Both the position numbers and the translations under genes were made by a program. The notes beneath the pieces are model-generated. The model saw nothing but the letters and a program-made list of their open reading frames with translations, searched no databases and was not told the DNA's origin. Below are positions 5,308 through 44,650 of a DNA stretch of 64,000 nt, in pieces. Position 1 is the stretch's first letter. Every line of letters starts with the position of its first letter. Source of the stretch: an unicellular cyanobacterium SU2. Lineage in GTDB: Bacteria > Cyanobacteriota > Cyanobacteriia > Cyanobacteriales > Microcystaceae. The stretch covers positions 62,001 through 126,000 of the forward strand of contig NEED01000069.1 of assembly GCA_002110465.1 (NCBI GenBank), written 5' to 3'.

Positions 5308-5329
5308 AATGAACTATTAAAAAATTAAA

Positions 5330-6895: not shown

Positions 6896-6929
6896 AATCA
6901 AGAAAGCAAAAAAAAGGAACCTATTACTT

Positions 6930-8528
6930 ATGTCAATAAAACGATTAATTCTGTCAATTTTAACAATTATTTCTTTGATTCCTGTATTATTTTCATTAGT
7001 TAATAGTATAAACCAGCCCCAAGTCCAAGCCAATCTTCAACTATACCAAACTAATTTAATTTTACAAGCTTCGGAATTTTCGTGGGAAGAATCAAACATT
7101 AATAATGATCAATCCAATTTTGATTTTGCCGAAGTCAAACAAGTATTAATAGGCAAAAATCCTTATACAGTTGCTTATGATCAATACAAAATATCCCTTG
7201 AAAGTTATCAGAAAAACTTAGAAAAGCTAGAAAATCAATTAACAGCAAATACGGAGAATTCAGTGACGCTCAACACTGATAACTCTACGCTAACTTCAGG
7301 GAATAATCTTTTAGTCTCTGAAAACCAAGAGAAATTAAAAACTGAAATCAAAACTCAAAAGCAAGAAATTGAAAAAGTACAATTAAAATTAGGAATTTTA
7401 AAAACACAACAGGGAGATTCATTAAAAGCAATTGAAAACTGGAAATTATTATTAACTTCAGATGACAGGAATAACTTTAAGTCTCAAATAAGACCAACGG
7501 CTGATATTTTAATTAACTTATGGAATGAAAATCCTAAAATATTGCCCAATGCAGAATCCCAAATACAAAATAATTTAGAAGGTTGGTTTCGTTACCAAGC
7601 TTTAAACAAGCTTTATACCCTTCAAGATAGACAAGCTGACTTAATTTCCTTAGAAAACCAACAAAAAGAAAAAGCTAGTGAAGCCATTATAAAATTAACG
7701 TTAGTCAGTATTATTCCTGCATTATTGGGACTCATTGGATTTAGCTTACTTATCTTTTTATTAATCCAGTTATTACTCAAAAAACAAGAGTCTATTTTAG
7801 CCATAGGTCAAACCCTTTCTTGGGAAACCCCTTGGGATGGGGAAATAATTTGGCAAGTCTTAATTGTGGGATTTTTCTTCTTTGGTCAAATTTTATTTCC
7901 TATTGTCTTTAGCTTTCTCCCCTTTAACCCAATTAACTTCAGTTTACGGGAAAAGGCATTTTATGTATTAGCCAGTTATTTATCCCTAAGCTTAGGGGGA
8001 ATTGTGGTACTTTATTGGTCTATTAAATCCTATTTTCCCTTACCGAAAGATTGGTTTAAATTCCAGATAAAAAGTAATTGGATACTGTGGGGAATTGGAG
8101 GATATTTAGTCGCCTTACCTTTGGTGATTATTGTCTCTTTAATTAATCAACAAATATGGGATGGTCAAGGAGGTAGTAATCCCTTATTATCTCTAGCCTT
8201 AGAAGCCCAAGATACAGTGGTTTTAGCTATCTTCTACTTTACCGCTTCCTTAGCGGCTCCCTTCTATGAAGAGATTATGTTTCGGGGATTTTTATTACCG
8301 TCTTTGACTCGTTATATTCCAGTTTGGGCTGCTATTGTAGTGAGTAGTTTTATTTTCGCCCTCGCTCACTTAAATTTATCAGAAGTGCTACCGCTAGCCA
8401 TTTTAGGGATGGTTTTGGGAGTCGTTTATACGCGATCGCGCAATCTTTTATCTTCGATGTTAGTTCATAGTCTGTGGAATGGGGGAACACTTTTGAGTCT
8501 GTTTTTATTAGGCAGTAGCGGCAATTAA
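6930..8528 (+). CDS. CPBP family intramembrane glutamic endopeptidase with N-terminal extracytoplasmic domain
   Basis: 532 residues. The N-terminus has a hydrophobic anchor (RLILSILTIISLIPVLFSL), then about 230 polar residues with coiled-coil heptads (ENQEKLKTEIKTQKQEIEK), then a C-terminal block of helices carrying the CPBP motifs: EEIMFRGFLLPSL (EExxxR), FALAHLNLSE and HSLWNGG. The family is related to Rce1 prenyl-protein proteases and bacteriocin-immunity proteins; the conserved Glu pair and His residues are all present, so activity is plausible. A strong AAAAAGGAA ribosome site precedes the ATG. The long N-terminal region is an extension over the bare CPBP domain. Confidence 0.85.
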   Translation: MSIKRLILSILTIISLIPVLFSLVNSINQPQVQANLQLYQTNLILQASEFSWEESNINNDQSNFDFAEVKQVLIGKNPYTVAYDQYKISLESYQKNLEKLENQLTANTENSVTLNTDNSTLTSGNNLLVSENQEKLKTEIKTQKQEIEKVQLKLGILKTQQGDSLKAIENWKLLLTSDDRNNFKSQIRPTADILINLWNENPKILPNAESQIQNNLEGWFRYQALNKLYTLQDRQADLISLENQQKEKASEAIIKLTLVSIIPALLGLIGFSLLIFLLIQLLLKKQESILAIGQTLSWETPWDGEIIWQVLIVGFFFFGQILFPIVFSFLPFNPINFSLREKAFYVLASYLSLSLGGIVVLYWSIKSYFPLPKDWFKFQIKSNWILWGIGGYLVALPLVIIVSLINQQIWDGQGGSNPLLSLALEAQDTVVLAIFYFTASLAAPFYEEIMFRGFLLPSLTRYIPVWAAIVVSSFIFALAHLNLSEVLPLAILGMVLGVVYTRSRNLLSSMLVHSLWNGGTLLSLFLLGSSGN

Positions 8529-8593
8529 GAGCTAACCCGATGATCTAAAATAGACTTAAACAGTTAAATAAGATTTCTAAAACTATAAGAGAA

Positions 8594-9400
8594 ATGATCC
8601 TCCGATTTGAGCAACACCCCATATCTAAAACCCTAGGGACTGTTGCAATTCTAGGACTGAGCTTATTCGCGATTGTCTTTCTACAAAAGTCTACTCTAAA
8701 GCCAGAAGAAGAGACTCTGACAAAAGAAGAGTATCAACAACAAGAACAACTAGAAAAACTGCAACTTGATGTATTTAAAGGCATTCCCACCCTAGGGTTT
8801 GATAATCTCTTGGCAGATTGGCTGTATTTACGGTTTATCCAATATTTTGGCGATGTAGAAGCCCGTGATCAAACGGGATATTCCCTCAGTCCCGACTATT
8901 TTGAGTTAGTAGTAGACAATGATCCTCGCTTTGTTGATGCCCATCTTAGGTTATCAGCCTCTACTTCAATCTTCGCTGGAGAACCGACAAAAACCGTTAG
9001 TTTATTAGAAAAAAGCCTGGAAAATCTGCCACCAAAGGTCGTTGCCCCCGTTTATCCTCCCTACTATCTTTGGACCTACAAAGGTGTTGATCAATTGTTG
9101 TTTTTAGGAGATGCACAAGGGGCAAAACAATCTTATCGAATGGCCGCTGACTGGGCTGAACTTTACCCCGATGAAGCTAGTCAAAGACTCGCCGCACGAC
9201 AGCGAAAAACCATTGAATTTTTAGAAAAGAACCCTCGCAGTAAAATTCCTCAAATTGGCGCATGGACAATGGTTTTATCAAGTGCAGCTGACAAAAAAAC
9301 CCAAGAAAGAGCAATAGCAGAGATTAAAGCCCTAGGAGGACAAATTGAGATCAGTCCTAATGGGCAACTTCGTGTCAGTGTTCCAGAAGGGGTTGAATAG
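8594..9400 (+). CDS. Membrane-anchored conserved cyanobacterial protein, TPR-like
   Basis: 268 residues: one N-terminal transmembrane helix (about residues 16-31), a charged linker with many Glu and Gln, then an alpha-helical region. Phrases such as GFDNLLADWLYLRFIQYFGD and DPRFVDAHLRLSASTSIFAGE are helix pairs resembling degenerate TPRs. I do not recognise a catalytic motif. It is probably an extracytoplasmic or lumenal scaffold conserved in cyanobacteria. Located between the CPBP protease and hemC with gaps of 65 and 103 bp; its connection to either is unknown. Confidence 0.65.
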   Translation: MILRFEQHPISKTLGTVAILGLSLFAIVFLQKSTLKPEEETLTKEEYQQQEQLEKLQLDVFKGIPTLGFDNLLADWLYLRFIQYFGDVEARDQTGYSLSPDYFELVVDNDPRFVDAHLRLSASTSIFAGEPTKTVSLLEKSLENLPPKVVAPVYPPYYLWTYKGVDQLLFLGDAQGAKQSYRMAADWAELYPDEASQRLAARQRKTIEFLEKNPRSKIPQIGAWTMVLSSAADKKTQERAIAEIKALGGQIEISPNGQLRVSVPEGVE

Positions 9401-9503
9401 ATTAACATTAGTGGGAGTCAATATCTTGTGTATAATTGGTTGAGTGTAGCCGATAGGATAAATAACCGCTCTACACCTAACTTTTAATTAGCAAATAATC
9501 TCT

Positions 9504-10466
9504 ATGGCCGTTTCTAGTCCGACTCGCCCCATTCGTATCGGTTCCCGTAAAAGTCAGTTAGCCTTAGTGCAAACCTATTGGGTACAAAAAGAACTACAAC
9601 GTCACTATCCCCAACGCCAATTTGACGTAGAAACCATGAGTACCCAAGGGGATAAAATTCTTGATGTTGCCCTGGCTAAAATAGGCGATAAGGGGCTATT
9701 TACCAAGGAATTAGAAGTGGCTATGGAGCAAAATCAAGTTGATTTGGCAGTACATTCCCTCAAAGATCTCCCCACTAATTTACCAAAAGGCTTAATGTTA
9801 GGGTGTGTGACTGAAAGGGTTAATCCAGCTGATGCCTTGGTGGTTAACGAAAAGCATCAAGATAAACAATTAGAAACCTTACCCGAAGGGGCAGTCATTG
9901 GTACATCTTCCCTCCGTCGCCTAGCCCAACTACGCTATCATTTCCCCCATTTAACCTTTAAAGATGTGCGGGGTAATGTTAATACTCGTCTCAGGAAACT
10001 CGATGAGGGAGAATACGACGGGATTATCTTAGCGGTAGCCGGGTTGCAGCGTTTAGACATGGGCGATCGCGTCCATCAAGTGATCAAGAGTGAGATTTCC
10101 CTCCATGCGGTAGGACAGGGGGCGTTAGGAATCGAATGTCGAGAGGGGGATGAAGAAATTTTAGAAATTCTCAAAGTCTTAGAACATGAACCTACCCGCG
10201 ATCGCTGTTATGCAGAACGGGCATTTTTACGAGAACTCGAAGGAGGCTGTCAGGTTCCCATTGGCGTTAATACATCGATTGAAGGAAACACCCTAACGCT
10301 AACAGGGATGGTAGCCAGTCTTGATGGTCAAACGCTGATTAAGGATACTATCAGTGGACAACGAGAGTCCGCCGAACAATTGGGGGTAGACTTAGCGAAC
10401 CGTTTACGAGATGCGGGGGCAGGTGAGGTGTTAGCCGCAATTTTTGCTGAAATTGAACGGGGATAA
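9504..10466 (+). CDS. hemC: Porphobilinogen deaminase (hydroxymethylbilane synthase)
   Basis: Polymerises four porphobilinogens to hydroxymethylbilane in tetrapyrrole (haem and chlorophyll) synthesis; cytosolic. 320 residues, normal length. Seen: the N-terminal [14 protein letters not shown], the active-site stretch [12 protein letters not shown], the [11 protein letters not shown] arginine motif, and [12 protein letters not shown] whose Cys249 carries the dipyrromethane cofactor. Start ATG at 9504 gives the expected N-terminus. Followed by a small TPR gene after 83 bp. Confidence 0.97.
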
Positions 10467-10549
10467 GCTGCTACATCCCAAACTATACCCAGTTTCAATG
10501 CACAACAGCTTATAATGTATTTCGTCTTAAACCTTGACCATAAACTTTG

Positions 10550-10975
10550 ATGACTGAATCTATAGAAACCGCCTTTGAGCAAGGATTAGAACGGTATAAA
10601 GAAGGGGAATCTCCTGAAACCCTAATTCCTTACTTTAAAGAAATCTGCGATCGCGCCCCCAAAAATAGCACCGCCTGGGCTTGTTTAGCTTGGCTATATC
10701 TCCTCATGGACAAACCCGAACGCGCCCTCAAGGCTGCTAACAAAAGCGTTAAGATAGATGATAGACCCCCTCAAGCGAGAATTAACCTCGCCCTAGCTAT
10801 GTTAGACACGGGGGCTAAAGGAGTTCGTTCCCACATCGAAGCGGCTGAACAAATGATGTCTCTTGATGAAGGGATTCGTGAAGATATTAAAGAAAATATC
10901 GAAGATGGCTTAGCCCGTAAACCAGATTGGAAAAGCCTCCAGCGCGTCAAAAATTGGTTGTTCCCTGTCGAATAA
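10550..10975 (+). CDS. Small tetratricopeptide-repeat protein
   Basis: 141 residues from the ATG at 10550 (a TTG three bases earlier is unlikely). Helical repeat content is visible in NSTAWACLAWLYLLMDKPERALKAANKSVKIDDR and the next unit, one to two canonical TPRs; the C-terminus ends GLARKPDWKSLQRVKNWLF. Likely a protein-protein interaction module. Its stop is separated by a single base from the ATG of the M48 protease gene, so the two are almost certainly cotranscribed and possibly translationally coupled, which suggests a shared task in membrane or protein quality control (inference). Confidence 0.75.
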   Translation: MTESIETAFEQGLERYKEGESPETLIPYFKEICDRAPKNSTAWACLAWLYLLMDKPERALKAANKSVKIDDRPPQARINLALAMLDTGAKGVRSHIEAAEQMMSLDEGIREDIKENIEDGLARKPDWKSLQRVKNWLFPVE

Positions 10976-11852: not shown

Positions 11853-11912
11853 ACGCACCACACTCAAAATGTGGCGGCTTCGGTCATGGGGGTTCGAGTC
11901 CCCCTCTGCCCA
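11831..11912 (+). tRNA. tRNA-Leu(CAA)
   Basis: 82-nt class II tRNA. Acceptor stem GGGCGGA pairs with TCTGCCC (one G-T wobble), discriminator A at 11912. The anticodon stem CCACA/TGTGG encloses loop CTCAAAA, anticodon CAA. A variable arm follows, then T-arm GGGGG-TTCGAGT-CCCCC. CCA is not encoded. The gene overlaps the end of the M48 CDS by 22 nt on the same strand. The sequence immediately 3' is a diverged copy of the right terminus of the mobile element that uses tRNA-Val, so this tRNA has probably served as an integration site. Confidence 0.95.
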
Positions 11913-11916
11913 TTTA

Positions 11917-12080
11917 CTTTAAACCCTGATGATGAAAAGGTTTTAGAATGCCTTACTCCCTCTCAGGGACGCTTTTTACTCAGTCTTTACTCAATCTTAC
12001 CTGATTCGGTGGGGGTAGCTGAGTAACTTAACCTTAGTTTTGTGATGTTATTATGTACATTCCCTCAAACAGTTATTTTA
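11917..12080 (+). repeat. Diverged copy of the element right terminus behind tRNA-Leu
   Basis: About 164 bp that align with 17424-17590, the sequence just 3' of the tRNA-Val core. Shared runs include CTCAATCTTACCTGATTCGG and GTAACTTAACCTTAGTTTTG. The three heptamers TTACTCA (11976 and 11987) and TGAGTAA (12020) have exactly the same spacing (11 and 33 bp) as at 17483, 17494 and 17527. The copy begins within about 5 bp of the tRNA 3' end, as expected for an attachment-site junction. No second tRNA-Leu 3' fragment was found in the window. Confidence 0.85.
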
Positions 12081-12132: not shown

Positions 12133-15100
12133 TCACACATTGTCTATCAAATCGTCTACCAAGTTTTCTACAGGAATTATATATCCTTGAAAGTCGGGAT
12201 GCTTTCTAAATTCAAAGTTTTCTGTGATTGTAATAGCAACCCGTTGTTCTAAATATTCTCGTTGTTGTTGTCTCGTCCCTTTTTCTAATAACCAGTCAGG
12301 AGGATTATCAAGACAATTATTCAGTAATTCAGCATTTTCTGAAAAAGATTTTATCTCTATTTTGAACATCTCAGGTTTCTGTGAATCATCATTTTCGTAC
12401 AAATACTGTCTTAAAGTTCCTAGTCGAGATTTATTTAAAATTAATATATTTTTGTCTATAACTTCAGAGTTGATAAATAAAACTGGGATTTTGAATTGTT
12501 TATATAAATAATATCCGTGAAAACTTTTTAAATTAACTGATCTAAAATCGGGATCAAATTTATGTTTGTACTCTTCAAGCGCACGCCAATCATCTATGAT
12601 TTTCCAAGAAGCAATTATCAATGTATCTTCTATTACTATTGTTTGACTTAAAGTATCAAAAATATTATCTAATAATATATTGTCTAATAAATTTTTATCT
12701 AGTGTTTCACAGTAATTTGCAATCTCTTGAATGATTGTATTATTTTCAAAATCTGCTAATTCCCTACCAACGCTATTACCAAAAGTTTTGGCTGTACGAG
12801 AAACTATATTCATCCAATTCTCAAAAAATATAGTTTTATCTTCAAGAAAATTACTTCCATAATCTTGTTTGAATTTATTATTATCAAGTTCCTCTTTACG
12901 CAGATGTAAAAACTCAAATATTTTTCTAACATAAGATAGCTCTGAAAATCCTTCAGAAACTCCATCTTTAAAGTCTTGAACTTTGTTTGAACTAATGTTC
13001 TGATTTCTTGTCAAGATAATGATTCTTTTTTCTGCTTTAACTTTTAATTCTTGTAAAAACGGAATAACTCCTTGTTCTATAGAGTCAGCAACCTTAGTTA
13101 AATCAAAATCTAAATTTCTGAATAAGTTATCATCTTGTTTAATTTCTTTTGCTACTTTAATATATTCATCAGTCCAATTACTTATTATAAATAAGTCATA
13201 AGAATCTAAGTTATCAAAGAGATTAAAATTTTGAATGGTTGATTGATAATTGGTTTGTGGAATTTTATAAAATTCTTTAATTAATAAGAGTAAGAAGTAT
13301 TTTTCTACATAAATTCCACTTCCATGATGATCATCCCATCTGTATTTGAATTGAAGTTGAAGTCGATCAATCTGACAATAAAAATGAATTATTTCTCCAA
13401 GTCCTGATGGTACAATATTACGGTTAGTCCATATAGCATCTGAATCTGAAGGTTGATTAAAGTTCCATAAACATTTAATGTAAGAAAATTGTTGTTTAAA
13501 AATGCAATAAGCTGCTGTATAAAACATGATAATTTTTAGGTTGTTATGTTTAAATTGGTCAGTTGCATTTCTAATGATTTTTTCGACTAATTCTATTTCA
13601 AATTGAACATCATTTTCGTTTTTAATACTTTCCGGTTTTTGAGGATTAATCCGTATTAAATAATTGAATTTATTAATCCAAGTAGTGAGTCTATCTTGTG
13701 TGTAAATGTCATTGCTTTCTGAGCGTAAATCGTAAATAGTATCTAAGATTTTAGTATTATCGGTTTCTAATTGAAGAATATATATATTTCGATAATCAGA
13801 TAAATTATTACTTAATGAACTGATAGAAATACATATTCCTTGTATTGCTGTAGAGACTAAGTATTTAAAAATTTCTATCTCGTCGTTAATGATTATGTAT
13901 TTAATAGACTTCCATAAATTCTCATCAAAAATTCCTAAATAAGATAAATTGAATTTATTTTCCACGTTAAATACTATATTTGTGTACCACCCTATAGAAG
14001 TCAAATAAGCTGAACTGTCTTTATTTGAAATTGAAATTACTCTCGTATCAGCTAAATCATTTAAAAGTTTTTTTATAAATACCTCATTGCCAGTATTTAC
14101 AGTTATTTCTCGAATAATATCCCTAATACCATAAACACTATAAAGACTTATTTCATGATTCTTTGAGTTAACAGCAGTTTCATGAATTCTTATAAATTGA
14201 TTGACTGCTGTTGTTAAAGTTATTAACTCTTCATTTGGATTAAAAAATAGTCTAAATGAAGCTTCTTTGGGATTTTTTTGATATAAATCATAAAAGTCTG
14301 AAGAAGCAAGCAACCGTTCAAACAATTCTAGATTTTTCCCTTTGATTTCAAAAAGAGTAATAATTGAATCTTGTATTTTTTGCAAACCAGTTAAAACAGT
14401 TTTATTAGTCTTTTTATCACTGACTTCAACAACGAGAATATCTCCAATTGCTTCAAATGATTCAATTAACTTATTTTGTATGATTTCTAGCTTCTTGTTA
14501 TTCTTAATCTTAAGTAATTTCTCAACATTAAGATTTTTGTCAATATCCTTATAAATCTGATTAAGTAAATATGATGTATTAACTGAATAATCTTTGACAA
14601 TTTTAAAAAATGAGACGAGTACAAATAAAATCATCAAAAACCAAATATAGACTAAATATAAAAGAATAATTTGCCATAAAAATTCTGGATCATCTACTAC
14701 AATAAATTTTAAGCTAACTGAAAAAGCAATATTAACAATGAGTAGAATAGGTAATATTTTGACTTGCCATTGTTGATTAAATTTATTAATAATGACCGAT
14801 GACTTATATCTTTCAGAAATTCTAGAAATTACATCAAAACTAATCGGTATTGCAATAGCAATAACAGCAGCTTGAACAGCAATGATATCTGATAAAAATC
14901 CTGTGCTTGGCGTAACTTGAATCAATTGAATGTCATCTATCTTAAGAGATAAAAAGGAATCAATATAACTTTGAAAATTAGGTGATGTTAACCCATTCAA
15001 CTCAAATAACATTTGATGAACTTTTAAAAATCCTACCCAATCACCTATAAGTATCCCTACAAGAACAATTAAGATAGAAATGAATCTTTGTCTGTCGAAA

Positions 15101-15138
15101 ATGACTACATCTGTGATAGTATTAAAAATATCTTGCAT
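12133..15138 (-). CDS. Large membrane protein of unknown function (1001 aa)
   Basis: Not recognised. The first 200 residues hold about four hydrophobic helices: SILIVLVGILIGDWVGF, DIIAVQAAVIAIAIPISF, VKILPILLIVNIAFSVSL and ILLYLVYIWFLMILFVLV. The remaining 800 residues are soluble, alpha-helical, Lys/Asn/Ile-rich, with no nucleotide-binding, nuclease or protease motif that I can see. The membrane arrangement vaguely recalls DUF2254-type proteins (weak). Codon use is very AT-rich compared with hemC or icd, as expected for acquired DNA. It is the only gene in the 3.9 kb between the element-like end behind tRNA-Leu and the core at 15771, apart from hicBA, so it is probably cargo. A defence or stress role is possible but unsupported. 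Confidence 0.7.
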   Translation of the reverse strand: MQDIFNTITDVVIFDRQRFISILIVLVGILIGDWVGFLKVHQMLFELNGLTSPNFQSYIDSFLSLKIDDIQLIQVTPSTGFLSDIIAVQAAVIAIAIPISFDVISRISERYKSSVIINKFNQQWQVKILPILLIVNIAFSVSLKFIVVDDPEFLWQIILLYLVYIWFLMILFVLVSFFKIVKDYSVNTSYLLNQIYKDIDKNLNVEKLLKIKNNKKLEIIQNKLIESFEAIGDILVVEVSDKKTNKTVLTGLQKIQDSIITLFEIKGKNLELFERLLASSDFYDLYQKNPKEASFRLFFNPNEELITLTTAVNQFIRIHETAVNSKNHEISLYSVYGIRDIIREITVNTGNEVFIKKLLNDLADTRVISISNKDSSAYLTSIGWYTNIVFNVENKFNLSYLGIFDENLWKSIKYIIINDEIEIFKYLVSTAIQGICISISSLSNNLSDYRNIYILQLETDNTKILDTIYDLRSESNDIYTQDRLTTWINKFNYLIRINPQKPESIKNENDVQFEIELVEKIIRNATDQFKHNNLKIIMFYTAAYCIFKQQFSYIKCLWNFNQPSDSDAIWTNRNIVPSGLGEIIHFYCQIDRLQLQFKYRWDDHHGSGIYVEKYFLLLLIKEFYKIPQTNYQSTIQNFNLFDNLDSYDLFIISNWTDEYIKVAKEIKQDDNLFRNLDFDLTKVADSIEQGVIPFLQELKVKAEKRIIILTRNQNISSNKVQDFKDGVSEGFSELSYVRKIFEFLHLRKEELDNNKFKQDYGSNFLEDKTIFFENWMNIVSRTAKTFGNSVGRELADFENNTIIQEIANYCETLDKNLLDNILLDNIFDTLSQTIVIEDTLIIASWKIIDDWRALEEYKHKFDPDFRSVNLKSFHGYYLYKQFKIPVLFINSEVIDKNILILNKSRLGTLRQYLYENDDSQKPEMFKIEIKSFSENAELLNNCLDNPPDWLLEKGTRQQQREYLEQRVAITITENFEFRKHPDFQGYIIPVENLVDDLIDNV

Positions 15139-15225
15139 CTTGATTGTTGAAAAAATATCTAGTTAAAGTATGAGATTAATTACGTTTAGGTACTTAAGAA
15201 GTTACAATGCGATTAAATTATTTGG

Positions 15226-15450
15226 CTATAACAACTTAATAAACTCATTAAGACTCAATTCACAATCTCGTAAAATCTGAGCAAATAATCCTCTCCCAAT
15301 GGTTTCTTTTCCATGAACAGGAATAACAGTTCTTCTACCATCAGGATGAATCAAAAAATGATGACTACCTTTAATTCTAGCGACGCTAAAACCAGCTTTT
15401 TTCAAAGCTGAAATCATTTTCTTTCCTGTGACGGCTGGAATATTACTCAT
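15226..15450 (-). CDS. hicA: HicA-type mRNA interferase toxin
   Basis: 74 residues, a double-stranded-RNA-binding-fold toxin that cleaves mRNA when not bound by HicB. Seen: ALKKAGFSVARIKGSHHFL with the catalytic His in GSHH, then HPDGRRTVIPVHGKETIGRG and LRDCELSLNEF, all typical of HicA. Its ATG overlaps the last four bases of hicB (ATGA), giving the order hicB then hicA. Such pairs often stabilise mobile DNA; here the pair lies just outside the core repeat at 15771, so it may be cargo of the tRNA-Leu element or resident. Confidence 0.9.
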   Translation of the reverse strand: MSNIPAVTGKKMISALKKAGFSVARIKGSHHFLIHPDGRRTVIPVHGKETIGRGLFAQILRDCELSLNEFIKLL

Positions 15451-15662
15451 CGCTTAATTTCTAGTCGTTGTATCCCCACAAATTCTAAGGGTTCAAATTC
15501 TTGATTTTCCATTTCTAAACAAAGTTCAATGGCTTCTTGAATACGTTCGATTAATTCATCATAGCTTTTAGCTTGGGTATGACATCCTTTTAATGTGGGA
15601 ACAGATGCAACTAAATAACCGTCTGCATCTTTTTCAATGATTACATTAAAGTATTTGGTCAT
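15447..15662 (-). CDS. hicB: HicB-type antitoxin
   Basis: 71 residues with the partial RNase-H-like HicB fold: MTKYFNVIIEKDADGYLVASVP, LKGCHTQAKSYDELIERIQEAIEL. There is no C-terminal helix-turn-helix, as in the short HicB forms, so autoregulation would need another DNA-binding element. It neutralises the HicA encoded by the overlapping downstream gene. Ribosome site AAAGGAAAC lies before the ATG. The promoter must lie in 15663-15770, the stretch that abuts the left core repeat of the mobile element. Confidence 0.9.
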   Translation of the reverse strand: MTKYFNVIIEKDADGYLVASVPTLKGCHTQAKSYDELIERIQEAIELCLEMENQEFEPLEFVGIQRLEIKR

Positions 15663-15770
15663 TGATGTTTCCTTTTTAAGTAATAGTTTTTTAGGCTTTT
15701 GACATCACGGGGGATGGTGAGGATGTCAAGGTGTCAATCTCTACGAATATATTATAAACTTTGTCAAAAA

Positions 15771-15876
15771 ATATGGACGTAACTGGACTCGAACCCTAAG
15801 CCTAGCCTAATTCTACTCATTTAGAGGCTCTATTGCTCAGTCAGACAACACTTAGTTTTCTGGTTTGAGTAAAAAA
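15771..15876 (+). repeat. 106-bp inverted repeat, left arm (left element terminus with att core)
   Basis: Perfect reverse complement of 17317-17422 (paired positions sum to 33193). The outer 25 bp are the tRNA-Val 3'-end core; the inner 81 bp are the element left terminus. It contains TGAGTAA at 15866, and a second TGAGTAA at 15877, 11 bp on, lies just beyond the repeat and overlaps the recombinase start. The repeat ends at the A of the recombinase ATG. Confidence 0.95.
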
Positions 15877-17288
15877 TGAGTAACGAAAACAGCAATAAAA
15901 ACAGCAGTAAATATACTGGCTATTCTGACTTACTAGCTTTCTATCACCGTAAGAGAAAAGAGTACCCAAAAGGAATATCCCCTAAGCTTCAAAGTAATAA
16001 ACACTTACTGCTACAGTTTACTGACCCAACTACAGGAAAAAGAACTACTAAAAGCTGTAATGTTAGTTTCTCAGAAGAAGGAGTAATTTTAGCACTCTCA
16101 AAAGCACATAAAGTAAAGAAAGCACTAGACAATTGTAAAACATCTTCAGAGTTCTGGGAATGGTATGAACTAGAAATACTAGGAAAAAATGAAATAAAAA
16201 ACGACTTAAAAACTTACAGAGAAATATTTAAAAAAATAGAGGATGATTATTTTAATGGTTATCATAAGAACACTGGCAGAAAAAGAAGTAAAAATATTGC
16301 TAATGATTCTAAAACATTTCATGATTATTATGGTTTGGTGTTTAATAAATTTGAGAACTTAGATAATTACCCTAAATGGGAAGACTTAAAAACAGTATTA
16401 TTTTCTTGGGAACAGGGTACTAAACAATTTAAAAATACTTATAGTGTTTTAACAAGAATAGCTAAAATGAGTCATAACAAAGATGAATTACTAGAGCAAT
16501 TAGAGAATATAAATCCTAAGCAAACTATTTTCAAAAAGAAGCAATCAATAAGTTTTAAAGAGTTTTCAGAATGGTATGAGAAAGCATATTTAGAAATAGA
16601 AAATTTAAACAAAGAAGTAGATAGAAAAGCTAGAAAATCCTGGTTATGGGTATCAGCAATGTGTGTAATTTATGGTTTACGTCCTAGTGAAATTGCTGCC
16701 AGTAAAAATTTAACAGAAAATATTACTATTGATGGGGTAAACATACCAGCATTAAATAGTCCGAATAATAAAGACTTACTTTTGTATATTGATGATTTTA
16801 CTTATTTTGGTACTTCTATTAAAACAGGAAAAAGGTTATGTCTACCAGTAACTAAAGATGAAAAAATAATAGAAAAATTTAAAATAAAAAATCCTTTATT
16901 ACCTGAGTATCATCCTAATCCACAAAGTAAACCAGAAAGCATTGCTATTGGATTTATTAGTCAATTTTCTTCAAGGCTTAAAAATTATAATTGTCCTATT
17001 AGTCAAAAATATGCTTTTAGACATTTATACAATCAGTTAGGTGAAATGTATGGAATACCTCAAGAAATAAGAGCTAGAAGTTTAGGTCATTCTGTTGCTA
17101 TAAATGATAGTGTTTATAAAAACAGAAGTAATATCCAAACAACAATAGACTTATTAACTAATCACTCTAAACAACCTTTAAGTTTAGAACTAGCAAAAGA
17201 AGCACTAAAAAACAATGGTTTTGATTTAGAAGATAATTCAGTAAAAGCAATACTAAAAATTATTTATCAAGTTGACTCAATAAATTAG
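15876..17288 (+). CDS. Tyrosine recombinase / integrase
   Basis: 470-residue site-specific recombinase that should cut and rejoin the tRNA-Val-derived core. Catalytic residues: Arg269 in YGLRPSE (box I), Arg382 in KYAFRH with Tyr instead of the usual His three residues before it, His405 in SLGHS, and nucleophile Tyr414 in NDSVYKN. The N-terminal 250 residues are Lys/Asn-rich and probably contain the arm-binding and core-binding domains. The start is ATG at 15876; no strong ribosome site is present because the upstream sequence belongs to the element terminus. A TGAGTAA heptamer overlaps the start codon, so the enzyme could repress its own synthesis by binding there (inference). It is flanked on both sides by the same inverted terminus, which is unusual. 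Confidence 0.92.
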   Translation: MSNENSNKNSSKYTGYSDLLAFYHRKRKEYPKGISPKLQSNKHLLLQFTDPTTGKRTTKSCNVSFSEEGVILALSKAHKVKKALDNCKTSSEFWEWYELEILGKNEIKNDLKTYREIFKKIEDDYFNGYHKNTGRKRSKNIANDSKTFHDYYGLVFNKFENLDNYPKWEDLKTVLFSWEQGTKQFKNTYSVLTRIAKMSHNKDELLEQLENINPKQTIFKKKQSISFKEFSEWYEKAYLEIENLNKEVDRKARKSWLWVSAMCVIYGLRPSEIAASKNLTENITIDGVNIPALNSPNNKDLLLYIDDFTYFGTSIKTGKRLCLPVTKDEKIIEKFKIKNPLLPEYHPNPQSKPESIAIGFISQFSSRLKNYNCPISQKYAFRHLYNQLGEMYGIPQEIRARSLGHSVAINDSVYKNRSNIQTTIDLLTNHSKQPLSLELAKEALKNNGFDLEDNSVKAILKIIYQVDSIN

Positions 17289-17316
17289 TATATTTTTTGC
17301 TTTAAAAATTAGTTAC

Positions 17317-17422
17317 TTTTTTACTCAAACCAGAAAACTAAGTGTTGTCTGACTGAGCAATAGAGCCTCTAAATGAGTAGAATTAGGCTAGGCTTAGGGT
17401 TCGAGTCCAGTTACGTCCATAT
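17317..17422 (-). repeat. 106-bp inverted repeat, right arm (internal att site)
   Basis: Perfect inverse of 15771-15876. The core 17398-17422 is shared with the 528-bp repeat that begins here, so this is the point where left terminus, core and right terminus meet, as in a circular attP junction. TTACTCA at 17321-17327 mirrors the heptamer at 15866. Confidence 0.95.
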
Positions 17423-17925
17423 CCCTTAAAATCTGATGATATAAAGGTTTGACAGTGCCTGACCACCCATTGGGGACGCTATTTACTCAGTTCTTACTCA
17501 ATCTTACCTGATTCGGTGGGGGTAGGTGAGTAACTTAACCTTAGTTTTGTGATGCTATTATATACACTGCCTAAAACAGTTCCAAAATAGGCACTAATAA
17601 AAGCAGTAAAAAAAAGAGTAATCAAAACAGTAATCAAAAAACTATACTAAATTCCTTCTCTTGTGTGAGAGAAAGAATAATAAATTTACTTCCCAAAATA
17701 ATATACTAAATTGCTTGTCTCCTGTGAGAGTGTATTTATATTATTTTTATTTCCAAAAATAGTTTTATTTTTACTTCTTAAAATAGCAATAAATTTACTT
17801 ACCAAAATAGAAGCGTTTTTTCACCTCTATTTGAAAATATAAACTATAACGTGATGAAATAAAGCCCTAGGAGAATGCCCCTAAAAGCTTTTGAACTGTC
17901 GAGTGTGTACCTGAAATATCAAAAT
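17398..17925 (+). repeat. 528-bp inverted repeat, left copy (right terminus, internal)
   Basis: Inverse of 21569-22096 (paired positions sum to 39494); equal length, and no mismatch noticed on comparison. It starts with the tRNA-Val core, carries TTACTCA at 17483 and 17494 and TGAGTAA at 17527, then several AT-rich direct motifs such as AATAAATTTACTT (three copies) and CTATACTAAATT / ATATACTAAATT. No coding potential is apparent. The first 170 bp are also found, diverged, behind tRNA-Leu. Confidence 0.95.
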
Positions 17926-18426
17926 AATCCTACTGCTAAAAAAAACAGTAATAAATTTACTCTTTAAAAAACTACTTTATTTGTTAGTAATTTTTAATAA
18001 TTATAGACAGTGTCTTTCTACCGAACGTTAGTTTTAGTGTCTAGTCCCCATAATACATAAATTTTTATTATGCAAGTGATAAGTAAACTAAATGTATTTA
18101 AGGGTCAATTCATGTGGGCTGTAAAACTGCAAAGACAGTCTGTGTATTTAGGTGAATAGAATCCTTATATTATCAGTGTTTTAGCTATTCTGGTAATTAG
18201 GCAGGTTTATAACTGCTTGACCATCTAACGAAATAATCAATGTTTTGGGGTTCATAATACAAGATTACAACTGTAGTACCCTACGAGGATGCGCTGTAAG
18301 CCCCTTATTTTCTAAAGCTAACCCATACCATCATTTGTTATTTCTAAGCTAGAGTCAACTATATAGAGTCGACCTACTAAACAAGTTGGGTATGATGAAA
18401 GTATCCAAAATGTTACAAGCTGAATT
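17926..18426. other. Noncoding stretch between right terminus and first cargo gene
   Basis: About 500 bp without a credible reading frame. It contains the 343-bp block also found between tRNA-Thr and tRNA-Pro. The last 110 bp (18315-18426) should hold the promoter of the small gene at 18427; I see no clear -35/-10 pair. Confidence 0.6.
17972..18314 (+). repeat. 343-bp conserved noncoding block, copy 1
   Basis: Aligns in inverted orientation with 44308-44650 at roughly 85% by eye over its whole length. Long identical runs include AGACAGTGTCTTTCTACCG and CAAAACATTGATTATTTCGT (reverse strand). No open frame is shared by both copies, so the conservation points to an RNA or a DNA-level function such as a replication or transfer origin of the element family. 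It lies between the internal right terminus and the first cargo gene. Confidence 0.85.
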
Positions 18427-18708
18427 ATGAGAAGTTACGATTCACCAGTACCGATGCAATACATGACAGTCTTCAATTCTGGCCAGAAGTCAACCTACTC
18501 CACACAAGAGAAAAAAGCGCACCAACCTTTAAAGCAGTTTTTAGAGGAGCATAATATCACTCGAAAACAGTGGCAATCATTAGTAAATAAAAGAGTGTGT
18601 TCATTAATTAAATTACATGGTCGTTTTTACACTTGTTTGTTTGATTGCTATGAAGGCATTCCAATAGAGCAACTATTAGTGAGAAAACGTTGCTTATCTA
18701 GAGAATAG
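18427..18708 (+). CDS. Small cargo protein of unknown function (93 aa)
   Basis: Not recognised. The basic C-terminal half, HNITRKQWQSLVNKRVCSLI, looks like a short helix-turn-helix-like region, followed by a beta-rich GRFYTCLFDCYEG. It could be a small DNA-binding or excisionase-like factor, since such proteins often accompany tyrosine recombinases (speculative). The gene is followed by a good intrinsic terminator at 18778, supporting real expression. Confidence 0.55.
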   Translation: MRSYDSPVPMQYMTVFNSGQKSTYSTQEKKAHQPLKQFLEEHNITRKQWQSLVNKRVCSLIKLHGRFYTCLFDCYEGIPIEQLLVRKRCLSRE

Positions 18709-18777
18709 CTGATATAATTGAATTAATTTTCCGAAATATAAGTATTTTTATTTGATTTTGAGTATTGTTCCTTTTTA

Positions 18778-18812
18778 CCCACTGCAAGCCCATGTAGTGG
18801 GATATTTTTTTT
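18778..18812 (+). terminator. Intrinsic terminator
   Basis: Stem CCCACT/AGTGGG with a 12-nt loop, followed by ATATTTTTTTT. It ends the transcript of the 93-residue gene and lies 11 bp before the next ATG. Confidence 0.75.
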
Positions 18813-18823
18813 AGAGAAAAATA

Positions 18824-19168
18824 ATGACTAAAACTAGAGCTTTTTTTATTACTGTTCGGAACACTAAATATAGAATTGTTTTTGAGCAACCAAATAACAT
18901 AATAAGAACAGAAACAAATATAAGACTTGAAATAATAAAGGTCTACCAAAGCATCTATAAAAGTATTTTTGAGTTTGAAGTATTCAGAGAAGAAATAGAA
19001 AAAAGAGTAAATGAAATACTTTGGAAAATAAAGGATAATCCAGACAAGTTTGCTAATGATGCTTTTAGACAAAAAGAATTAAAAGACCCCTTCAGAATAC
19101 CAAGGAAAAAAAGAGTAACTCTAAGAGAACAAATAAAAGTAGTAGACATAAATACATCTACTACTTAA
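18824..19168 (+). CDS. Small cargo protein of unknown function (114 aa)
   Basis: Not recognised. Charged alpha-helical protein; the middle (RLEIIKVYQSIYKSIFEFE, EEIEKRVNEILWKIKDNPD) predicts long amphipathic helices, and the C-terminus is basic (RIPRKKRVTLREQ). It is convergent with the 230-residue gene, with 25 bp between stops. An overlapping minus-strand frame (18698-19072) was judged a shadow because its composition is dominated by Phe, Tyr, Ser and Ile. Confidence 0.5.
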   Translation: MTKTRAFFITVRNTKYRIVFEQPNNIIRTETNIRLEIIKVYQSIYKSIFEFEVFREEIEKRVNEILWKIKDNPDKFANDAFRQKELKDPFRIPRKKRVTLREQIKVVDINTSTT

Positions 19169-19193
19169 TTTAACAGTTAAAAGTGTTTTATTT

Positions 19194-19886
19194 TTAAGCT
19201 ACAGTAGTGTTAGTCCATTGCTTATAGAATGTTCTGTTTCCTACTTGTCTTTTAAACCAACCTTTAGTTTTTAATAAACCTGCTATTTCTTGATTTGATA
19301 TTACTAGATTATTGTAGTCTAGTACGTTTTTTAATTCGTTAAAAGTGACAGTTCTTTTTAGTGCTTTCATTCTCTCTAGATAATCGTTCAAAATATCTAT
19401 AGCTTTAACGTTATTAATTTCAGTAGTTGTAGTTACTGTATCGTCTTTTCTTAAGTCATATCTTTCTTTGTAAATTAAGTAATCAATTAACTGATTTATT
19501 ATCTTTTCATCCCAAGCTAATTGATAAAAAACAGTTTCATAGTCATTCCCAGTTGTACTTAATTTGCTTTTTGTACAGCAATTATCTTTGTATTTTTCTG
19601 CGGGCTTATAGTAGGAATTTTTATATTGGGTATAATAATCATTTTTTATTTGAACTCCTAGATTATTAAGTAATTCATTAACTTTTCGTCTTGTAAATTT
19701 TTTGATAAAAATATCGTTTAACTTTTCTGCTATCTTATCTGCTGTCAGGTAGTTATCGTTCTCAGGCATCAAGTTAAACTTTGCTTTTACTATTTCAAGA
19801 CCTCGATTATAAACATGACTTGTAATAGCTTTTTCTGTGTGTAGTTCTTCGAGATATTTAATTAAATCATTTCCTCTATCAGACAT
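19194..19886 (-). CDS. Cargo protein of unknown function, possible winged-helix DNA-binding protein (230 aa)
   Basis: Not recognised by family. Two segments resemble winged-helix units: residues about 45-75 (LTADKIAEKLNDIFIKKFTR, then VNELLNNLGVQIKN) and the C-terminal 60 residues (TFNELKNVLDYNNLVISNQE, then LLKTKGWFKRQVGNRTFYKQ). The latter reads like a classical recognition helix plus wing. A regulatory or replication-initiation role inside the element is possible. It diverges from the 82-residue gene across a 143-bp intergenic region that holds a promoter for the latter. Confidence 0.55.
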   Translation of the reverse strand: MSDRGNDLIKYLEELHTEKAITSHVYNRGLEIVKAKFNLMPENDNYLTADKIAEKLNDIFIKKFTRRKVNELLNNLGVQIKNDYYTQYKNSYYKPAEKYKDNCCTKSKLSTTGNDYETVFYQLAWDEKIINQLIDYLIYKERYDLRKDDTVTTTTEINNVKAIDILNDYLERMKALKRTVTFNELKNVLDYNNLVISNQEIAGLLKTKGWFKRQVGNRTFYKQWTNTTVA

Positions 19887-19965
19887 TGTTATTTCCTCTA
19901 GTTTAATTACTTGAAATTATTGTAATTGCTTTGCATTAATATGTCAATTTTTTTGCTTTTATTTG

Positions 19966-19993
19966 TTGACTTATTTTCTGGTTATGCTAATAT
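19966..19993 (+). promoter_or_regulatory. Sigma-70-type promoter of the 82-residue cargo gene
   Basis: TTGACT, 16-bp spacer, TAATAT with an upstream TGC extended -10 (TATGCTAATAT). It lies 36 bp before the ATG at 20030, giving a short leader. It is in the divergent spacer, so the 230-residue protein could control it. Confidence 0.55.
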
Positions 19994-20029
19994 AAAAAAG
20001 AACGAAACTACTGTAAGACTAATAGAGCC

Positions 20030-20278
20030 ATGATTGTTACAAAATTACCTCAAAGAAAAAGCAAGGTAGACCAAAGATTTCTAGATTCTAAAGGAAATAT
20101 AGCAAATATAGTAATGGTTCCTCCAGAATGTATGATGCCTATTATGGGTTTACTTCTTTGGTACAACCAAGACTTAAAGATGAGTGACTTTATTCCTAAA
20201 CCTGAGAATTACCAGTCATTCATAGAGAATTTATTCATTGAGGATAAAGAAGGAAATGAATTAGGTTTAGCAAGCTAA
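20030..20278 (+). CDS. Small cargo protein of unknown function (82 aa)
   Basis: Not recognised. The N-terminus is basic (TKLPQRKSKVDQRFLDSKGN), then PPECMMPIMGLLLWYNQDLK, then an acidic C-terminal helix. It is preceded by a plausible promoter and followed by a strong bidirectional terminator, so it is probably expressed as a single gene. Confidence 0.5.
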   Translation: MIVTKLPQRKSKVDQRFLDSKGNIANIVMVPPECMMPIMGLLLWYNQDLKMSDFIPKPENYQSFIENLFIEDKEGNELGLAS

Positions 20279-20297
20279 AGAAGTAAAAAAATAAGTA

Positions 20298-20337
20298 AAC
20301 CCCTATCCATTAGTTTTATTTGGGTAGGGGTTATTTT
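20298..20337. terminator. Bidirectional intrinsic terminator
   Basis: Stem AACCCCTATCC / GGGTAGGGGTT with a 13-nt AT-rich loop. It is followed by ATTTTTAT on the plus strand and by TTTACTTATTTTTTT on the minus strand. It separates the convergent genes ending at 20278 and 20361. Confidence 0.85.
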
Positions 20338-20360
20338 TATTGCTTGTTGAGACTACTTTT

Positions 20361-20759
20361 TTATGCCCAATTTTTCCATCTAATTTCTAGAATTTCTTTT
20401 TCTTTTAAAGTAATCTCTTGACCATTATTATTTTTTGCTATGAACTCCCATTCACTTTCTTTATCTGTTACTTTTCTGGCTGAATGGAAAGTTAAATTAT
20501 TAAGCTCTTCATTACTTAAAGTAAAACCAGATATAAGACCATGTTTTAATCCTTCTAGATAAAGAGATGCAACTTTAGAACTAACTCCTATTGCTTTATT
20601 TTTTGCATATTTAGTATAGTCAAACATTCTAGGCTGATTGTTCTTTTCTATGTCCTCATCAATTAAATCTAATAAAGCAATCAACATAGATTCATATTGA
20701 CTAGGAAATCTCATAGTTTTACATTGCCCTAGATTTTTCCATTTAGAAGGTCTTGCCAT
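20361..20759 (-). CDS. Cargo protein of unknown function (132 aa)
   Basis: Not recognised. It begins MARPSKWKNLGQCKTMRFP, a style common in small plasmid or phage proteins (compare ribbon-helix-helix or copy-control proteins), then SQYESMLIALLDLIDED. The N-terminal FPSQYESMLIALL could be a ribbon-helix-helix-like element. It lies 17 bp downstream of the GGKRKGAGRK protein gene on the same strand, so the two form a small operon. Confidence 0.5.
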   Translation of the reverse strand: MARPSKWKNLGQCKTMRFPSQYESMLIALLDLIDEDIEKNNQPRMFDYTKYAKNKAIGVSSKVASLYLEGLKHGLISGFTLSNEELNNLTFHSARKVTDKESEWEFIAKNNNGQEITLKEKEILEIRWKNWA

Positions 20760-20776
20760 TGTTCTTTCCTCGTTAA

Positions 20777-21037
20777 TTAATTATTTAGTAAATTTTCTGG
20801 TACTTCTGAGAGAAACTTTCGGAGCATATCCCATCTTGGATTACTACTGGTATCACCAGCTAAATCACTTTCATGTTTGTACTGTCTCAGAACAGTAATT
20901 AATTCAATCAAATCACTGTTACTTGGCAAGTCTTTGGGAACTCGACGAACTACTGTAGAAATACCAGTAATTTTTCTACCAGCACCCTTACGCTTGCCTC
21001 CCCAATTACTCTTTTTTTGAGTATTATTTCTACTCAT
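20777..21037 (-). CDS. Small basic protein with GGKRKGAGRK motif
   Basis: 86 residues from the ATG at 21037 (MSRNNTQKKSNWGGKRKGAG), preferred over one 21 bp upstream because an AGAGG ribosome site lies 11 bases before it. The WGGKRKGAGRK motif occurs at the N-terminus of many small proteins of cyanobacterial plasmids, phages and transposable elements; it is presumably a nucleic-acid contact. The rest (LPSNSDLIELITVLRQYKHE) is helical. It forms an operon with the 132-residue gene. Confidence 0.6.
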   Translation of the reverse strand: MSRNNTQKKSNWGGKRKGAGRKITGISTVVRRVPKDLPSNSDLIELITVLRQYKHESDLAGDTSSNPRWDMLRKFLSEVPENLLNN

Positions 21038-21058
21038 GAAAATAAAACCTCTAAACAC

Positions 21059-21288
21059 TATCTATGAATAGATTGTAACAAGTAATCAAGATTCTGTAAA
21101 CAATTAATATAAGTCTTATTTTTATTACTTTTTTTCTTAAAATCCATTCTCGTAGAGATAAGTAAAAATAATAAAAAACATAAGTAAAAAATATATTGAC
21201 TTTTATCTATCGTTATTACTGCTTTTAGAAGCAAAAAAAGTAGTAATACTTTTGCTTATAGTTATTATTCACTTTTATCTATATCAAG
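21059..21288. promoter_or_regulatory. AT-rich noncoding region with iteron-like repeats
   Basis: Contains two direct copies of ACTTTTATCTAT (near 21201 and 21271) flanking an imperfect palindrome ATTACTGCTTTT / AAAAGTAGTAAT. Such spacing is seen in replication-initiator or operator sites. No open frame. It may also include the promoter of the two-gene minus-strand operon. Confidence 0.4.
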
Positions 21289-21627
21289 GATGAAGCAAGA
21301 CCTAACGGCTGTCTGTCAATCCGTGGTGTAGCCAGGCTTTGCGATGTATCCCCTTCTACTATTTCTGAGGGTGTTCGGAACCCACAGCATAAATTGACTG
21401 AAACACTGACCGCACAAGGTTTTGAGGGTGTTCGGATAGTTTCTGAAGGGTTTTCCCCTGAAGCTGCGGTACTTACCCTAGAATATTTTGCTTACTTCTT
21501 GGATTACAGTTGTAATTTAAAATGTTCTCTACCTATTCAAATTTCAAATTCTACCTACCTAAACCAACATTTTGATATTTCAGGTACACACTCGACAGTT
21601 CAAAAGCTTTTAGGGGCATTCTCCTAG
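21289..21627 (+). pseudogene. Truncated helix-turn-helix protein remnant
   Basis: The open frame has no credible start: it is closed upstream by a TAG near 21256. It encodes GCLSIRGVARLCDVSPSTIS, which reads as a helix-turn-helix, then KLTETLTAQGFEG and GFSPEAAVLTLEYFAYF. I recall similar N-terminal regions in cyanobacterial KilA-N/Rha-like accessory proteins, where a longer C-terminal part follows (family assignment tentative). Here the frame drifts into the 528-bp inverted repeat at 21569 and stops there, so both ends are lost. The junction suggests the repeat was placed into or beside an older gene. Confidence 0.6.
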
Positions 21628-22096
21628 GGCTTTATTTCATCACGTTATAGTTTATATTTTCAAATAGAGGTGAAAAAACGCTTCTATTTTGGTAAGTAAA
21701 TTTATTGCTATTTTAAGAAGTAAAAATAAAACTATTTTTGGAAATAAAAATAATATAAATACACTCTCACAGGAGACAAGCAATTTAGTATATTATTTTG
21801 GGAAGTAAATTTATTATTCTTTCTCTCACACAAGAGAAGGAATTTAGTATAGTTTTTTGATTACTGTTTTGATTACTCTTTTTTTTACTGCTTTTATTAG
21901 TGCCTATTTTGGAACTGTTTTAGGCAGTGTATATAATAGCATCACAAAACTAAGGTTAAGTTACTCACCTACCCCCACCGAATCAGGTAAGATTGAGTAA
22001 GAACTGAGTAAATAGCGTCCCCAATGGGTGGTCAGGCACTGTCAAACCTTTATATCATCAGATTTTAAGGGATATGGACGTAACTGGACTCGAACC
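21569..22096 (-). repeat. 528-bp inverted repeat, right copy (right terminus adjoining tRNA-Val)
   Basis: Inverse of 17398-17925. Its outer 25 bp include the 3' end of the intact tRNA-Val. Heptamers: TGAGTAA at 21994 and 22005, TTACTCA at 21961. This is the natural tRNA/right-terminus junction. Confidence 0.95.
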
Positions 22097-22148
22097 AGTG
22101 ACCCCATCGATGTCAACGATGTACTCTAACCAACTGAGCTATACGTCC
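22075..22148 (-). tRNA. tRNA-Val(GAC)
   Basis: 74 nt. Acceptor GGACGTA/TACGTCC with discriminator A (T at 22075 on the plus strand). Anticodon arm CATCG-TTGACAT-CGATG gives anticodon GAC. T-arm contains GGTTCGAGTCC. CCA is not encoded. Its 3' end (22075-22096) is the recombination core of the adjacent mobile element and stays intact after integration. It is divergent from icd. Confidence 0.96.
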
Positions 22149-44307: not shown

Positions 44308-44650
44308 TAGAAAACAAGGGGCTTAGAGGGCATCCTCGTAGTGTACTACATTTGTAATCTTGTATTATGAATCCCAAAACATTGATTATTTCGTTAGATG
44401 GTTAAGTGGTTATAAATACCTGGCTAATCACCAGAATAGCTGAAACACTGATGACATAAGGATTATCCCTACCTAAATACATAGACTGTCTTTGCCGTTT
44501 CACAGCCTACATGAATTGACCCTCAAATACATTAATTTTGCTTATTACTTCAATAAAAAAATTATATATTATGAGATCTAGACACTAAAACTAACGTTCG
44601 GTAGAAAGACACTGTCTATAAGTTATTAAAAATTACTAACAAATAAAGTA
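44308..44650 (-). repeat. 343-bp conserved noncoding block, copy 2
   Basis: Reverse-complement homologue of 17972-18314, roughly 85% by eye. It fills nearly all the space between tRNA-Thr and tRNA-Pro, whose 3' ends both point toward it. No recombinase, core repeat or open frame remains here, so it is a relic or a minimal member of the same element family. Confidence 0.85.

Follow-up and report, generated by a model that had tools for sequence, protein, structure and literature searches.

A tRNA-Val-anchored integrative element of a unicellular cyanobacterium with a second, inverted attachment site and a probably invertible cargo

Introduction

Textbook integrative elements avoid a circle that would invert itself. 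Inversion between inverted repeats with recombination sites is found in the invertible segments of P1 and Mu, where serine invertases exchange the ends of tail-fibre genes, and the yeast 2-micron circle is ~6.3 kb in size. This plasmid carries 599-bp inverted repeats and exists as two isomers in equal amounts, and its recombinase (Flp/FRT) can start double-rolling-circle amplification (PMC3147054). CTXphi has attP1 and attP2 in opposite orientation, pairing in single-stranded DNA (PMC3089051), and DIRS1 has an internal region that is inversely complementary to its two ends, with halves overlapping at the circle junction (PMC3266345). Here we analyze a 64,000-nucleotide stretch of the unicellular cyanobacterium SU2 (contig NEED01000069.1, positions 62,001 to 126,000; hereafter the window, from an 82-contig assembly), which contains an integrative element at a tRNA-Val gene with its own attachment site (attP) kept inverted inside it, between the integrase gene (int) and the cargo.

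Results

The 25-bp tRNA-Val core, ATATGGACGTAACTGGACTCGAACC, is present three times, in direct orientation at 15771-15795 and 22072-22096 and inverted at 17398-17422. Two inverted repeats of 100% identity, one of 106 nt (15771-15876/17317-17422) and one of 528 nt (17398-17925/21569-22096), overlap exactly on the inverted core; because they are exact at such length, chance can be dismissed. The element reads, in order, left core - L - int - L' - core' - R' - cargo - R - right core, L and R being the attP arms. Joining R, core and L as in excision (21569-22071 followed by 15771-15876) yields a 609-bp junction that is, letter for letter, the reverse complement of 17317-17925. The internal core therefore represents a complete attP. 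The circle predicted from the outer direct cores has 6301 bp and two identical attPs in opposite orientation, which part int from the cargo. Repeat searches and the junction comparison thereby bear out the original prediction as to the three cores, the perfect repeats meeting at the inverted one and the identity of the latter as attP.

The proposed anchoring in a tRNA gene is equally well founded. As in other integrative elements of this kind, the outer cores are direct, one of them completing the intact 3' end of tRNA-Val(GAC), and the element's own integrase gene lies beside one attachment site, int beginning where the L arm ends; in place of the single attP of an ordinary excised circle, two identical inverted ones are predicted. 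Six same-genus genomes have a tRNA-Val without insertion, and the left boundary was set by the match of 15742-15795 to the tRNA-Val 3' flank of an insertion-free same-genus genome (G036, L117). The features are collected in Table 1.

A search for the same layout in other genomes was fruitful: the double inverted repeat recurs in over 20 elements of two single-contig genomes, G319 and G238; these elements belong to two integrase lineages and have sequences unrelated to the window element. In G319, where 26 integrase matches make for an unusual copy number, L-arm and R-arm matches fall as nested inverted pairs; across its 15 whole elements, the L pair round int measures 49-93 bp (95-100% identity) and the R pair round the cargo 107 to about 990 bp (80-99.8%). 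A further element of this layout lies in G238 (L097), and the second integrase lineage shows it in both genomes (L174, L176, L177, L180 and L182, with L179 and L183 in part), which brings the layout to three integrase lineages, the window's included. L067 (5.1 kb, tRNA-Asn) is a near-twin of the window element in layout. The window cargo proteins have no homologue in the other fetched loci, and a double-attP layout with unrelated cargo argues against a cargo-specific switch. In single-origin tests, a clade of the window and the first G319/G238 lineage was not rejected (p 0.10), whereas one including the second lineage was (p 0.005), with deep forks unresolved and the picture blurred by module swapping; it is possible that a single integrase family took up this layout on more than one occasion.

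Cargo orientation was scored against L056 in 23 relatives: 12 lie one way (L055, L056, L059, L060, L062, L065, L068, L070, L071, L174, L177 and L182) and 11 the other (L057, L058, L061, L066, L067, L069, L072, L097, L176, L179 and L180), a ratio counted across integrated relatives and not within one population. The int start, in contrast, lies at the outer end and reads inward in all 24 elements (the 23 relatives plus the window), which can be treated as separate integrations because each occupies its own target; under equal use of both attPs, such polarity has p about 1e-7. These sequences suggest inversion of the cargo but a fixed orientation of the int cassette with respect to the host. The original prediction had allowed either to flip: the first half is supported by the relatives, whereas the second finds no support, and free inversion of int is rejected (0/24).

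Within 283 bp of attP there are five copies of the heptamer TGAGTAA, against 0.07 expected, and there is none in the window int or cargo. Two pairs are spaced by 11 bp, one of them at 15866/15877, and the site at 15877 overlaps the int start codon. This is the only attP heptamer missing from the internal copy (B), and in L056-type elements copy B lacks two of the sites. To judge by their distribution, the heptamers are putative arm-type integrase sites; since B is without the one at the int start, it would not be equivalent to the copy at that end (A).

The cores and arms appear to hold a record of exchange. All three cores, the inner one and the outer pair, are the same in the window element, L056 (tRNA-Gln), L067 (tRNA-Asn), L069 (tRNA-Leu), L174 (tRNA-Ser) and L176, and three equal cores also mark several other insertions outside tRNA genes. 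In L055, L057, L065, L070 and L072, the outer cores match each other and the inner core differs. Some inner cores equal the core of another element (L055 from L057, L059 from L056, L065 from L058), and those of L177 and L180 both equal the core of L176, which has three equal ones. On the simplest reading, elements would exit with the core of their site on both attPs, and a later integration would alter the outer core alone; if inner cores record earlier sites in this way, exchange between A and B is required. R arms are closer within than between elements (0.907 vs 0.876, p 0.0002). In L056, L069 and L070, core-proximal L arms are perfect while R arms have diverged to 80-92%; together with the perfect cores, this contrast favors a core-centred process. 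No position-specific signal telling integrase from RecA crossovers was found in the R arms.

Exchange also extends to whole modules. L174 and L056 share cargo that is 96-99% identical and have widely different integrases, so int cassette and cargo must swap as units. L068 (G319:6584900-6598700), whose left core equals its inner core and whose right core is different, was considered as a direct trace of integrase-mediated cargo inversion and then withdrawn: it is a chimera of two loci, because the gene at its left flank is intact in G238 and the right flank is foreign to that gene. At L068 and L142, dispersed copies appear to have rearranged the chromosome.

The nearest integrases, L035 (61%), L036/L037 (56%), L038, L039, L040, L042 and L043, have no inverted L arm behind int, and in such relatives the far end, where located, consists of a direct core at the 3' end of a tRNA gene. 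Relatives without the internal core, named in the original prediction as a ground for doubt, do exist, but they show the double-attP form to be a variable state within the integrase family and not a spurious layout. At a tRNA-Leu gene, L041:9580-11253 holds an int-only element of ~1.64 kb with direct cores and a 61-bp inverted L arm at both ends, a possible intermediate form. In addition, L085 (G297:C4) carries two identical, direct int-bearing stretches of at least 5.7 kb (5104-10846 and 14159-19901) at a distance of ~9 kb; an ordinary family member may have inserted here in tandem. No relatives were found in viral contigs, plasmids or phage records.

The int product is taken as a tyrosine recombinase because R269, K316, R382, G404-H405 and Y414 are invariant across 56 homologues. 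Relative to the catalytic set R...K...HxxR...H/W...Y, residues R269, K316, R382, H405 and Y414 are in place, the second-box His excepted; this position is Tyr379 in the window int and is not conserved. The predicted assignment thus stands on its invariant residues, although no match was obtained to recombinase profiles of Pfam (including PF00589), NCBIfam or PHROGs, nor in sequence searches of PDB structures. Profile-profile comparison aligned the box I region alone (E 0.03). A two-sequence AlphaFold model was poor (mean predicted local distance difference test score 43.5) and confident at residues 15-100 only. This segment is modeled as three strands between two helices, as might be expected of an arm-binding domain.

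Table 1. Features of the tRNA-Val element and its surroundings (window coordinates).
Feature	Position	Strand	Evidence
Host DNA normally following tRNA-Val, left insertion boundary	15742..15770		Match to G036 (L117)
Left outer core, copy of tRNA-Val 3' end	15771..15795	+	Repeat search, core comparison
L arm of attP copy A; TGAGTAA sites at 15866 and 15877	15796..15876	+	Repeat and motif search
int, 470 aa, divergent tyrosine-recombinase-like integrase	15876..17288	+	Invariant residues in 56 homologues
L' arm and inverted core of internal attP (copy B)	17317..17422	-	100% inverted repeat of 15771-15876
Internal inverted core	17398..17422	-	Repeat search, core comparison
R' arm of copy B; TGAGTAA/TTACTCA at 17483, 17494 and 17527	17423..17925		100% inverted repeat of 21569-22071; motif excess, p about 0.001
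Cargo, 3643 bp, six small open reading frames	17926..21568		Open reading frame list, family searches
R arm, outer right end	21569..22071		Repeat search
Right outer core, within tRNA-Val 3' end	22072..22096	+	Repeat search, ARAGORN
Intact tRNA-Val(GAC), target gene	22075..22148	-	ARAGORN
R-arm scar of related element beside tRNA-Leu(CAA)	11890..12074	+	83% to 17397-17581 over 185 bp

The six open reading frames of the window cargo (93, 114, 230, 82, 132 and about 85 aa) gave no confident family match. The 17-kb G319 elements look virus-like, with an S74 tail-fibre chaperone (PF13884, 2.9e-8) and an ATPase; homologues of the latter encoded by ordinary elements resemble the AAA, RNA_helicase and DUF5906 models, with scores below cut-off. 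L056:3063-16711 has a 14-kb virus-like cargo whose two halves are transcribed outward and which encodes an AAA/SF3-like ATPase besides an S74 tail-fibre protein; among the L056 cargo proteins scanned, no capsid or tail genes were recognized, the S74 protein apart, and this cargo possibly represents an undescribed virus or satellite group.

Remnants of related elements are scattered through the window genome. R-arm scars, at 11890-12074 and at six G000 loci (L130, L132, L133, L136, L137 and L138), immediately follow the 3' ends of two tRNA-Leu genes and of those for Ala, Pro, Arg, Thr, Gly and Met, a distribution that would fit the use of at least eight further tRNA targets by related integrases; the scar at 11890-12074 has TGAGTAA sites of its own. 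A 343-bp stretch at 44308-44650, inverted between tRNA-Thr and tRNA-Pro and 88% identical to the cargo-side sequence 17973-18314, is by this similarity the remnant of another relative. Between the tRNA-Leu scar and the element, 12133-15662 encodes a 1001-aa protein without family assignment, together with a HicA/HicB-like pair, genes that may belong to another insertion.

Discussion

On balance, we consider it probable that the locus is a tRNA-targeting integrative element whose circle isomerizes between two inverted attPs and which integrates via A only. Excision at the outer direct cores would release a 6.3-kb circle with 609-bp attPs at the int start (A) and the int end (B); recombination between A and B would then invert the cargo relative to int and keep both cores matched. 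Copy A alone would integrate, being the sole copy with putative arm-type sites reaching into the int start codon, and integration via A only would leave the int start always outermost and the cargo either way. We infer that the excised circle forms and that the integrase itself catalyzes the inversion, with RecA as the alternative. By analogy, isomerization would serve the circular stage (2-micron-like replication or copy-number control), not cargo expression.

Several points weigh against this proposal. Both circle and inversion are inferred from sequence; the window element itself is known from one assembly only, its nearest integrase relatives do without copy B and int lacks a recombinase profile match. 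Since the G319/G238 elements share descent, the 12:11 ratio is a tally of copies and not of independent flips. The cargo could also be turned by homologous recombination across the R arms, and recombination between elements is documented by the L068 chimera and by cargo/int swaps, including L174.

These last points also feed an unlikely, though serious, alternative, namely a passive by-product: attP would have been inversely duplicated by aberrant replication or by collapse of a head-to-head dimer, RecA-type recombination would flip the cargo, gene conversion would keep the copies alike and B would have no role. R repeats of 300-990 bp suffice for RecA and L repeats are short, which would also fit cargo at 12:11 with int at 24:0; the absence of a position-specific signal in the R arms, their homogenization within elements (p 0.0002) and the recombination seen between elements agree with this. 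However, the cores of copy B are still complete and match the target, its L arms are perfect next to R arms that have diverged, and three integrase lineages share the layout; moreover, a useless inverted attP would destabilize the element's own circle.

We regard as improbable a fold-back in which A and B pair in single-stranded DNA into a duplex attP usable by the integrase (as in CTXphi), or restore the ends (as in DIRS1), with one strand being joined and int polarity thereby fixed. Oppositely oriented attPs and the 24:0 polarity would fit, as would the precedents: the two inverted dif-like attPs of CTXphi pair in this way (PMC3089051), and the internal regions of DIRS1 complement both ends and overlap at the circular junction, as here (PMC3266345). 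Yet neither a rolling-circle Rep nor a reverse-transcriptase or filamentous-phage gene was recognized in scans of the window and of L056 cargo proteins, hundreds of bases separate A from B, R arms have diverged in several G319 elements and the near-1:1 cargo orientation would need a separate explanation.

Phase variation, with inversion switching cargo expression from promoters in R or the int region in the manner of an invertible tail-fibre segment, seems more doubtful still: cargo is found either way and G319 cargo includes the tail-fibre-like S74 protein, but in the L056 cargo transcription runs outward in both halves as far as the R arms, so that a flip alters no promoter-gene join, and the window and L056 cargos have no genes in common. 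Lastly, the objection that the assembly wrongly joined reads from attL, attR and attP of an ordinary element is scarcely credible, for all that the window genome is in 82 contigs and that reads of an excised circle could coexist in culture: a mis-joined ordinary element would not give L on both sides of int plus R on both sides of the cargo, and single-contig genomes, in which the layout recurs many times with different sequences and target-matched cores, lead us to reject it.

With an inverted attP in its interior, the circle of an integrative element would be expected to invert; here the arrangement is conserved, target-matched and multi-copy in one complete genome. A possible, if tentative, extension of the isomerizing circle is a bacterial 2-micron-like strategy, in which the integrase would flip half of a replicating circle and set off double-rolling-circle amplification before re-integration, in an element that is in part virus-like and whose layout was perhaps adopted more than once in the integrase family. 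To our knowledge, recombinase-driven inversion and amplification are known so far mainly from the 2-micron plasmid; the present element would offer a tractable bacterial model for the former and perhaps the latter, with inner cores that would serve as a written record of earlier integration sites. No description of a bacterial element of such layout was found in the open-access literature, a scope that makes this weak evidence.

Comparison with known systems

The window element shares with ordinary tRNA elements of its integrase family (L036, L037, L042, L043, L052, L075 and others) an int beside the left core, an L-arm plan with TGAGTAA-like sites and direct cores at tRNA 3' ends, whereas those elements have no internal inverted attP or R repeat. 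In contrast to P1 and Mu, recombination would take place at the attP that belongs to the element itself and would turn the entire cargo. CTXphi likewise has two oppositely oriented attachment sites in one circle; these are 90 bp apart, however, and are served by host XerC/XerD at dif, while the window sites flank int and go with the element's own integrase and a tRNA-gene target. As in DIRS1, the internal L'-core'-R' is inversely complementary to both ends and its halves overlap at the circle junction; unlike DIRS1, the element is bacterial, its ends are direct cores in a tRNA gene and its L and R ends are not mutual inverted repeats, and no reverse transcriptase or RNase H family was found in the window cargo or L056 cargo proteins scanned.

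The 2-micron plasmid differs in being a eukaryotic nuclear plasmid with partition genes and no tRNA-gene integration; protein family scans found no partition gene family in the window element, which is chromosomally integrated. The window element, for its part, integrates, its site is an attP with arm sites, its copies A and B differ at the int end, its int comes from an unrelated family and any amplification would be by analogy. The two nevertheless share a circle of ~6.3 kb, inverted repeats of ~600 bp that each contain the site of their own tyrosine recombinase, a recombinase gene parted from the other genes, and isomers at about 1:1, as matched by 12:11 among the integrated relatives.

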